Shown here: one piece after another, positions 26,027-32,607 of the stretch
How the letters are laid out: every line of letters begins with the position of its first letter
Position numbering within the stretch: the first letter of the stretch is position 1
DNA from: Pseudomonas parafulva
GTDB lineage: Bacteria > Pseudomonadota > Gammaproteobacteria > Pseudomonadales > Pseudomonadaceae
DNA length: 64,000 bases
NCBI RefSeq assembly: GCF_002021815.1
Contig: NZ_CP019952.1
Location: forward strand, 1,767,001-1,831,000
Direction: 5' to 3'
Notes under the pieces: model-generated
What the model saw: only the letters and a program-made list of their open reading frames with translations
Told to the model about the DNA's origin: nothing
Database searches by the model: none
Made by a program: the position numbers and the translations under genes

Positions 26027-28801
26027 CTAGTTATCTTCGATCAACAGATTGACTGGAAAGTCCGACAGCACAGCACACACCATCAACTCTCTTACAGGGC
26101 TGACAACGGCCCCACCGAAAAGTCCAGTCGAATTGGCAGGTGAGAAGTCGAACGGCAATACGACCCGGGTATCTTCCCAGTTCTGTGGGGGGACGTGAGG
26201 GCTCTGTGCCGCGCCCAGCAGACCGCTGGCCAAGCGCGGCGCGACAATCACGGCGCGTTGTGAGTCGCCCAGGCGGGCGAAGGCGACGACCTTGTCGGCA
26301 TGGCGCCCCTTGACGGTCAACGGCAGGTAACTGCCCCGGCGGAACAGCTCCGGGTTGGCCATGCGGCAGTCGAGCACGCGGGCCACCAGCGCCTGCTTTA
26401 CCCGGCCGTCATGCCAGTGGCTTAACAACGCGTCGAGCGGCGCGGCCTCTGCCAAGGTGCTGCGTCGAGCGGGATAGTCGACGGGCCGGCGGTTGTCTGG
26501 GTCCACCAGGCTGAAGTCCCAGTATTCGTTACCCTGATACAGATCAGGCACCCCTGGCACGGTCATGCGCATGAACGCCTGCACCAGGCTGTTGAGCGCA
26601 CCCGGGCAACTGATCAGCTGCGCCGCCTCGGCGATGGAGGTGCGCAGGGGCAGGGCATCGGCCTCCAGCAGTAGGCCTTCGAGATAGCGAGCACAGCCCT
26701 TTTCGTAGGCTTCGTTGGGGGCGTTCCAACTGCTGCGCAGCTTGGCCTCGCGCAGCGCTTTCTGTTGCCACTGACCGACACGCTCGGCGTATTGCTTAAG
26801 GCCTTGGGCGTCATCGACGGCCAGGTCCAACGGCCAGGTGCCCAACAGGGTCTGGAGCAGCAGCATTTCATCACCAGGACTCGGCGCCAGCCCATCCTCG
26901 AGCGGTGTGTGCAATGGCGCTGCCAGCTCGCGCCAGTGCGCCATGCGGCTGGCCAGCCAAGGCCCGCGCTCGCTCAGCACAGCCAGGCGGGCGCGCGTGT
27001 CTTCACCGCGCTTGTGGTCATGGGTGGCGGTGGCCAGCAGGTTGTCCGGGAAGTCCCGCAGGCGTCGCTGAGCCTCGTTGTGGAAGTGCTCCAGCGGAGC
27101 GCTGAAGCGTTCGGCCTCAAAGCCCACATCGTTGCGCGAGAGCAACCTTGCGCTGCGGTAGAACGCGGTGTCTTCGACGGCCTTGGCCGCGCTGGGGGCC
27201 GTCAATTGCTGGAAGCGTACGCAGGCGTGGCGCAGTTGCTTGCGGGTACGGCCAGGTGGCAGCTGGCGCCAACCTTCGCCGCCCAACCATTTTTCCAGTT
27301 GCTCCAGCAAGGGCCAGTCGGCCTCGCTCAGGTCCTGGCGCGCATCGGCCAGGGCCTGCTGGAAGAATGCCTCATCCTCGGCCGGGCGGCCACACGCATT
27401 GAAGTAGGTGCGGTAAACCGGGTAGTGCGCGACCAGTGCCTGCAGGGCGCGACGAATGGCACCCAAGGATAAATCGCGGGTCATCAGGTCGTTGCGCGCA
27501 ACCTGCAGGAGAGCTTGCGCCACCGATTCGCAGTCACCTGCCAAGCTTGCGTTGAGCACCAGATGGCGCGCCAGGCGCACTTCTTCGGTAAACGCCGGGC
27601 GCTCGCTGACCGTCGACCACAGTTCGGTCAGCGGGGCCTCACCGGCCGGGTCGTGCTGCAACAGCGAGACCTGGTTCATGAACTCGTAGCCGGTGGTGCC
27701 ATCGGTGAGCCAGTCGCGGTGCAGATGCTCATCGACGCCCAGGATTTTCTCGACGTAGATGGGGAAGTGCTCAACGCAAGCGTCCAGTGGGCGGCTGGCC
27801 ATCAGGCTGTCCACGCGTCGGCGCAGCTTGCGGCAATAACCGCGTGGGTCTGCCAGGCCGTCGATGTGGTCGATGCGCAGGCCATCGACCAGGCCGCGTT
27901 CAATCAACTCGAACAGCTTGGCATGGGTGGCTTCGAACACCACCGGGCGCTCGACCCGCAAACCGCCCAGCTCATTGATGTCGAAAAAGCGCCGCCAGTT
28001 GATGTCGTCGGCAGCGGTGCGCCAGCTGGCCAGGCGATAGGTCTGACGCTCGAGCAGCAGGTGAAGGCGCTTGAAGCCGGCCTCGCTGCGGCTGTCGAAT
28101 GCCACCAGGGCCGAGGCCAGGTCGGCGCCTTCGCGCACCCGACGGGCCAGTTCGGCTTGCAACGGCGCGGCATCGTCAAGCGGGGTGGCGGACTCGCCAA
28201 GGGCGGTGAACTGTTCGGCCAGGCTGGTCAGGGTCGGGTCAGCGCTGAGCGCCAGCACCCAGCCGTAATCGACCGGGCAGATCGGGAAGCGGTGCTCATA
28301 GTGAGCGATTTGCAGTACCCCCTGGTCGGCGTCGAATTCCAAGGGGATCTGGCCTTCCTTCAGCGCTACACCGTAATCGCTGCCCAGGAACGGCAGCAAC
28401 AATTGGCCAGCGAGCAGCGGGTCGGTGGAGTGCCACTGGATATCGAAGAACTCCGCATACGGGCTGCGGCGCCCCCAGGCCAGCAGGCTCTGCCACCAGG
28501 GGTTGTCAGCGCCGCCAACGGCCATGTGGTTGGACACGGTGTCCACGATCAGGCCCATGCCATGCTGGCGCAGCGCTTTGACCAGGCGCTCGAGCGCCGC
28601 TTCGCCGCCCAGTTCCGGGTTGACCTGGGTGGGATCGACGACGTCGTAGCCGTGGCGCGAACCTGCGCGGGCCTTGAGGATCGGCGAGGCGTACAGGTGG
28701 CTGATGCCCAGTTGGGCAAAGTACGGCACCAACGGCAGGGCATGGTCCAGGGTAAAGTCGCTGTGAAACTGCAGGCGCAGGGTCGCGGTAAGCGGTTTCA
28801 T
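26027..28801 (-). CDS. treY: Maltooligosyl trehalose synthase, 924 aa
   Basis: Turns the reducing-end maltose of a glucan into a trehalose unit (alpha-1,4 to alpha,alpha-1,1), the first step of the TreY/TreZ path. GH13_26 motifs: HLYASPILKARAGSRHGYDV, GLIVDTVSNHMA, GLRIDHIDGLADPRGY (nucleophile near 310), YVEKILGVDEHL (Glu), and TATHDHKRGEDTRARL (Asp). Length is somewhat above the usual 750-930 range but normal for Pseudomonas. ATG 28801 overlaps the malQ TGA as ATGA, so it is coupled to the upstream gene. Confidence 0.93.
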   Translation of the reverse strand: MKPLTATLRLQFHSDFTLDHALPLVPYFAQLGISHLYASPILKARAGSRHGYDVVDPTQVNPELGGEAALERLVKALRQHGMGLIVDTVSNHMAVGGADNPWWQSLLAWGRRSPYAEFFDIQWHSTDPLLAGQLLLPFLGSDYGVALKEGQIPLEFDADQGVLQIAHYEHRFPICPVDYGWVLALSADPTLTSLAEQFTALGESATPLDDAAPLQAELARRVREGADLASALVAFDSRSEAGFKRLHLLLERQTYRLASWRTAADDINWRRFFDINELGGLRVERPVVFEATHAKLFELIERGLVDGLRIDHIDGLADPRGYCRKLRRRVDSLMASRPLDACVEHFPIYVEKILGVDEHLHRDWLTDGTTGYEFMNQVSLLQHDPAGEAPLTELWSTVSERPAFTEEVRLARHLVLNASLAGDCESVAQALLQVARNDLMTRDLSLGAIRRALQALVAHYPVYRTYFNACGRPAEDEAFFQQALADARQDLSEADWPLLEQLEKWLGGEGWRQLPPGRTRKQLRHACVRFQQLTAPSAAKAVEDTAFYRSARLLSRNDVGFEAERFSAPLEHFHNEAQRRLRDFPDNLLATATHDHKRGEDTRARLAVLSERGPWLASRMAHWRELAAPLHTPLEDGLAPSPGDEMLLLQTLLGTWPLDLAVDDAQGLKQYAERVGQWQQKALREAKLRSSWNAPNEAYEKGCARYLEGLLLEADALPLRTSIAEAAQLISCPGALNSLVQAFMRMTVPGVPDLYQGNEYWDFSLVDPDNRRPVDYPARRSTLAEAAPLDALLSHWHDGRVKQALVARVLDCRMANPELFRRGSYLPLTVKGRHADKVVAFARLGDSQRAVIVAPRLASGLLGAAQSPHVPPQNWEDTRVVLPFDFSPANSTGLFGGAVVSPVRELMVCAVLSDFPVNLLIEDN

Positions 28802-32607: not shown

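Follow-up and report, generated by a model that had tools for sequence, protein, structure and literature searches.

Organization of the treZ–malQ locus

Several trehalose and α-glucan genes of Pseudomonas parafulva lie close together in the stretch of DNA analyzed here (the window: 64,000 nucleotides, positions 1,767,001 to 1,831,000 of contig NZ_CP019952.1). On the minus strand, treZ and malQ occupy a single frame which encodes 1269 residues and runs from ATG to TGA without an internal stop. The original prediction, made from the letters alone, had proposed this joint frame, and its further readings of the sequence also held. Six C are present at 30888–30883 (minus strand), the ATG at 30867 lies within an ATGA, and the other frame past the C run leads to the TGA of this ATGA. 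The same type of overlap is found at malQ/treY (28801–28798) and at treS/glgB (21012). The main features, in window coordinates, are the following:

17527–21015: TreS-Pep2 fusion (family match)
26027–28801, minus strand: treY, downstream of malQ, ATGA overlap with malQ retained (family match, sequence)
28798–32607, minus strand: fused treZ–malQ reading frame, 1269 amino acids (open reading frame from ATG to TGA, family matches)
28798–30867, minus strand: MalQ part, residues 581–1269, 4-alpha-glucanotransferase, GH77 (PF02446, TIGR00217 over its cut-off; solved structural relative PDB 4s3p)
30864–30867, minus strand: ATGA in which the former start of malQ and the former stop of treZ overlap (sequence, locus comparison)
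30868–30891, minus strand: joint, residues 573–580 (LPPRPEDA), partly a product of the frame change (sequence, translation)
30873–30877, minus strand: remnant of the malQ Shine-Dalgarno site, AGAAG for AGGAG (pairing energies)
30883–30888, minus strand: six-C run at the joint, five C in P. fulva (sequence, locus comparison)
30892–32607, minus strand: TreZ part, residues 1–572, malto-oligosyltrehalose trehalohydrolase (TIGR02402 over its cut-off; solved structural relatives PDB 3m07, 1eh9, 2bhu)
32621–34180, minus strand: glgA, upstream of treZ (open reading frame, family match)

The fused frame is flanked by glgA upstream and treY downstream. Its cluster neighbours further include glgX, and treS-pep2 and glgB on the opposite strand. 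The treY open reading frame as listed begins at 28816, and the family match starts from residue 6, which corresponds to 28801. These are the genes of two clusters described for P. aeruginosa (PMC8084333). Near the trehalose genes, the window also encodes a trehalase-like protein of 597 residues (37423–39216, plus strand) which scores 420.6 bits against the archaeal TreH1 model, below the cut-off of 820.

The two enzyme parts

Both halves are recognized by family models. TIGR02402 (TreZ) matches residues 15–541 with 656.1 bits (cut-off 538.8), while TIGR00217 (MalQ) matches residues 691–1247 with 330.3 bits (cut-off 205.65) and PF02446 residues 738–1239 with 363.3 bits (cut-off 25). The narrower MalQ model PRK11052 covers residues 583–1264 and, with 481.1 bits, does not reach its cut-off of 806. 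Both domains stand in one open frame, TreZ then MalQ, which is the arrangement that defines a TreZ–MalQ fusion. A peptide spanning the joint falls within TLLPPRPEDAMSDSLLHR.

In a 48-row alignment of fused proteins, D251, E284 and D373 as well as D1033, E1081 and D1133 are invariant. These two triads are the expected catalytic residues of GH13 and GH77, respectively. With the catalytic motifs present, the TreZ part is predicted to release trehalose. The genome consists of a single contig of 4.69 Mb, rated 100% complete, and harbors one GH77 match and one TreZ match over the cut-off, both of which are the fused gene.

The split state in relatives

We compared 110 loci: one from a search of the genome itself, 30 from a genus search, the window among them, and another 79 that were named loci. 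Searches by tblastn with the two halves found both in every locus. Fusion is restricted to two entries (L001 and L002), both of which are the window itself, and the 108 others are all unfused. Several loci represent the same place twice; without that of the window, there are 94 distinct junction stretches of 380 bases. A 4-base stop/start overlap occurs in 89 of the 108 split loci when starts are called mechanically. The nearest locus, P. fulva NBRC 16637 (L032, L003), shares 95–96% protein identity with the window and shows the same junction minus one base, in the split state.

The genus search covered 398 genomes and gave a MalQ match in 354, of which 150 are listed. Among these 150, a malQ open frame longer than 1250 codons is present in the P. 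parafulva genome alone (1303 codons); the next longest, in genome G277, has 1115. No treZ–malQ fusion was found in other Pseudomonas among the 108 loci or the 150 listed of the 354 matches, which rules it out as a common trait of the genus. Because all other loci are unfused and the listed matches hold no further long malQ frame, the split arrangement is supported as ancestral, as originally predicted, and one extra base would have fused the genes here. The stop loss is thus derived and, within the genomes covered, confined to this one. The fused state is represented by one assembly, from one genome of its species.

Other collections reach less close to the window. In a sample of 194 genomes of relatives, to which the P. 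fulva genome (G141) does not belong, nothing apart from the P. parafulva genome exceeds 78% identity. In the protein collection, the best TreZ match is 87% identical (among the best 120 of 8000) and the best fused match 47% (among the best 120 of 1034), with no P. fulva or same-species protein in either set of 120. These searches are silent on the species itself because close relatives seem to have been left out of the collection, the TreZ of P. fulva being absent from the 120 listed.

A different change was observed in Pseudomonas farsensis SWRI107 (L021, L063). There, the treZ end and the malQ ATG are one base closer together than in near relatives, and the stop of TreZ comes 4 bases later. 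The overlap is then 8 bases long instead of 4, and the genes are unfused. The treZ/malQ joint thus takes indels in other lineages too.

Location of the extra base

The junction of P. fulva reads CTACCCCCAAACCAGGAG, with CCCCCAAACC at the site of the extra base, and that of the window reads CTACCCCCCAGACCAGAAG. The original prediction had placed the extra base within the C run. The six-C run is there, but this placement is one of several: by eye, an extra C plus a substitution costs the same as an extra G plus a substitution when P. fulva is the reference, and the extra base looks like an A against relatives which carry CCCCCCGACC (C6 then GACC). Furthermore, blastn places the gap at 30881, outside the run. 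Growth of a homopolymer is therefore not certain.

Loss of the malQ Shine-Dalgarno site

In relatives, the terminal part of treZ contains the Shine-Dalgarno site of malQ (CCAGGAG ahead of the ATG). We evaluated such sites by their pairing energy with the 16S tail. The comparison is limited to loci whose TreZ identity exceeds 60%, which leaves out five loci at or below 60% and provides 64 distinct upstream stretches of 18 bases. Energies range from −10.3 to −2.4 kcal/mol across these stretches, with −7.4 kcal/mol in P. fulva. The window reaches −1.6 kcal/mol, weaker than all 64, and carries AGAAG in place of AGGAG. The core of the site is retained in 62 of the 64 stretches, the exceptions being L097, for which the start call is probably wrong, and L031/L058. 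The other sites tested in the window are strong (−8.6 for treY, −10.0 for treZ, −8.5 for glgA and −9.4 kcal/mol for glgB).

Two controls address how often such losses occur. Seventeen ATGA-overlap pairs with coding support were aligned with P. fulva, a set whose filter the malQ/treY pair did not pass. A loss of at least 4 kcal/mol is seen in treZ/malQ alone. Among the other 16 pairs, 12 have a site at −5.8 kcal/mol or stronger in P. fulva and four are weak from the outset, so that the loss rate in other overlaps with a clear site is 0 of 12, a small control. Of 132 starts which are strong in P. fulva, three lost at least 4 kcal/mol and one was left with a site weaker than −2.5. For the opposite comparison the corresponding numbers are four and one of 128, with starts called mechanically in both directions and malQ itself outside the set.

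Rate of change in the two halves

Amino-acid changes between the window and P. fulva were polarized with four outgroup loci (L033, L034, L065 and L066). Those for which this was possible are about evenly distributed between the two lineages: 8 in the window and 9 in P. fulva for TreZ (of 29 differences), 10 and 11 for MalQ (of 29), 5 and 6 for TreY (of 16), and 1 and 1 for GlgA (of 2). Change is faster in TreZ and MalQ than in TreY and GlgA, but this holds for both lineages. Faster decay of either enzyme on the lineage of the window is ruled out by this evenness.

Other TreZ–MalQ fusions

Proteins of the same composition exist in other bacteria. Nearly all of the best 120 of 1034 matches to the fused protein combine amylase and GH77 domains, with at most 47% identity over the fused length. 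Azospirillum, Roseococcus and Geminicoccus, all Alphaproteobacteria, are among the organisms of these 120, and the JGI name malto-oligosyltrehalose trehalohydrolase/4-alpha-glucanotransferase is frequent. No Pseudomonas appears among the names shown. By Pfam, TreZ precedes MalQ in all six other fusions inspected, two of which, with ~1,870 residues, contain a further N-terminal part of ~540 residues with a maltokinase cap. The stretch across the joint (N534–L586) measures 53 residues in the window and thus falls within the 43–78 residues of 47 other fused proteins, picked from the 120 listed for lengths near 1300.

These proteins resemble the one described here in having TreZ then MalQ in one chain, with a similar joint length. 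They differ in sequence, and the larger two by their additional N-terminal part. Judged from these comparisons and from the phylum sample below, TreZ–MalQ fusion is uncommon yet has arisen elsewhere, and the present case in Pseudomonas looks new, independent and young. Our literature search found no published account of a TreZ–MalQ fusion.

The phylum was sampled with 299 genomes, 56 of which have TreZ over the cut-off (the P. parafulva genome counted). Seven other genomes were picked from these 56 for their long TreZ frames, and GH77 lies in the TreZ frame in genome G501 alone, so that most of the long TreZ frames inspected are something other than TreZ–MalQ fusions. In this genome, from another family of the phylum, both domains share one frame of 1691 codons (G501:C60:4501-7347), and a second TreZ (C139) is located in a frame of 648 codons. 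In two single-member TreZ–MalQ proteins (P0002 and P0003), the TreZ end looks out of frame, being arginine-rich ahead of MalQ; a recent indel or an error may underlie these as well.

MalQ is also joined to other partners. In the models MalQ-TreY (PRK14507, NF011077) and GlgX-MalQ (PRK14510) it is linked to a pathway neighbour, as indicated by model lengths and match ranges. The partner differs here, and scores of 584 against a cut-off of 2148 bits (PRK14507) and 394.9 against 2511 bits (PRK14510) rule out membership. The TreS-Pep2 fusion, also found in this window, likewise unites two enzymes of the same pathway in one chain (PMC11046441); it is found in many organisms, unlike the single-genome TreZ–MalQ case. 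The same source describes GlgB-MalQ of Neisseria suica, where MalQ is combined with another α-glucan enzyme. However, the partner is a different one and MalQ forms the N-terminal end (PMC11046441).

The split counterparts of treZ and malQ, in P. fulva NBRC 16637 and as PA2164/PA2163 in P. aeruginosa PAO1, are the same genes in a cluster with glgA, treY and glgX. In P. fulva they encode separate proteins with an overlapping stop and start and a malQ Shine-Dalgarno site, in contrast to the window, and the PAO1 pair is described likewise (PMC8084333).

Origin and consequences of the fused frame

Three options were originally put forward for the joint frame: an indel of sequencing, a real bifunctional fusion, or slippage at the C run giving both products. 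We favor the second, a real and very recent treZ–malQ fusion through a one-base insertion at the overlap, with a probability of roughly 0.7. The main reason is the loss of the malQ Shine-Dalgarno site, which a sequencing slip would not bring along. This loss is one substitution in one genome and thus shifts the odds without proof. Further reasons are the lack of excess amino-acid change, the length of the joint and the existence of other TreZ–MalQ proteins.

According to this reading, a single-base insertion at the treZ/malQ overlap would have abolished the stop of treZ, so that the two genes now share a frame. Their product would then most likely be one protein of ~140 kDa, with TreZ (GH13) at the N-terminal end, an 8-residue joint and MalQ (GH77) at the C-terminal end. 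This protein presumably folds with both activities preserved, and MalQ synthesis would now depend mainly on read-through from treZ. A few ribosomes may still shift +1 at CCC-C, which would yield the former TreZ. Both halves may act on the same pool of linear glucan made by GlgA, TreZ freeing trehalose from the product of TreY and MalQ rearranging malto-oligosaccharides. In PAO1, MalQ acts by disproportionation on the malto-oligosaccharides that derive from GlgA and supplies the GlgE route with maltose, and TreY and TreZ make trehalose (PMC8084333). The fused protein would fix TreZ and MalQ at a 1:1 ratio and hold them together on this pool.

If real, the fusion comes close to a natural experiment on the way in which adjacent genes of an operon turn into multi-enzyme proteins. 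With a split relative at 93% DNA identity, it is directly testable in which order the insertion and the loss of the internal start took place, and how trehalose and α-glucan flux are affected. A more specific and tentative proposal, which we regard as possible but far from the likeliest outcome, is that the fusion is in its first steps: one base would have been gained at a coupled overlap and the internal ribosome-binding site would have decayed, while +1 slippage at CCC-C would still leak the split enzymes. If so, it would illustrate a route from translationally coupled overlapping genes to fused ones.

Alternative explanations

The extra base could be false and the real genome split like its relatives, through an error of sequencing or assembly. 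We consider this unlikely but not negligible. The unfused state of all 108 other loci speaks for it, as does the position of the extra base next to a homopolymer. The genus matches examined contain no other fusion, which fits an error and a young event alike. A survey of frame transitions in prokaryotic genomes, mostly of broken, not joined, genes, anticipates that singletons confirmed by homology are errors of sequencing and not genuine indels (PMC3711429).

To assess the assembly, the window and 400 kb of its own genome were compared with 360 kb of P. fulva, which gave 279.5 kb of aligned pieces with 93.4% identity. Among 234 gap runs not divisible by three, seven could be classed by codon phase and 227 could not. 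Three of the seven are continuous in P. fulva, three are mixed and one, the treZ/malQ junction, is continuous in the window. At genome position 2069244 (L146, about 18244), a 1-base deletion leaves two frames of 303 and 290 codons here where P. fulva has a single one of 524, which points to either a pseudogene or a sequencing error. This second frame-breaking indel adds to the case for an error. At 1896105 no gene is broken here (597 codons, against 462 and 475 in P. fulva) despite a phase class of continuous in P. fulva; at 1959334 the class is the same and the frame lengths are equivocal. Among 63 A/T runs with at least six bases, seven have another length than in P. fulva, six of them being shorter here (coding and non-coding runs taken together), which again is compatible with an error.

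However, an error leaves the lost Shine-Dalgarno site unexplained. In addition, 33 of 35 C/G runs with six or seven bases are as long as in P. fulva; the junction run is one of the 33, since the gap was placed outside it. The assembly is not full of C/G-run slips, which alone does not settle the question of error or mutation. The single contig with its completeness rating and the codon-phase classes given above, which cover seven of the 234 gap runs, also stand against an error. If the base is false, the locus serves as a warning that one base at an ATGA overlap yields a convincing fused gene.

Alternatively, the mutation could be real but harmful or neutral: the fused protein would be made with one half, probably MalQ, performing poorly, and would be transient in one strain. 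One genome alone carries the fusion (against 108 other loci and 150 listed of 354 matches), as expected for such a variant. In PAO1, deletion of malQ raised trehalose and caused no growth defect without salt, which suggests that a loss of MalQ would be tolerable (PMC8084333). Against this, neither half shows excess amino-acid change, although a very recent event would leave none, and fusions elsewhere share the order of the halves and the length of the joint. We find this explanation rather improbable.

Lastly, fusion could be accompanied by leakage. A +1 slip on CCC-CCC combined with weak re-initiation at ATG 30867 would yield a mixture of fused protein, TreZ and MalQ. After a +1 slip at the run, translation indeed reaches the old TGA which overlaps the malQ ATG. 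CCC-C is known as a +1-prone site, with up to 1% in E. coli when it adjoins the start codon (PMC4519876), and when tRNA-Pro lacks m1G37 it undergoes +1 shifts on slippery codons (PMC7577736). The reported rate is low and the Shine-Dalgarno site for internal initiation is weak. The run lacks conservation, and nothing therefore indicates that a slip was selected. Low-level slippage could leak some split product, but we consider such a mixture very doubtful and the least probable of these explanations. An evolved slippage switch or programmed frameshift, the form of the slippage option which would require a conserved device, is not supported because the run varies from C2 to C6 across the 108 split loci, with C6 in 17 of them (14 of the 94 distinct junctions).
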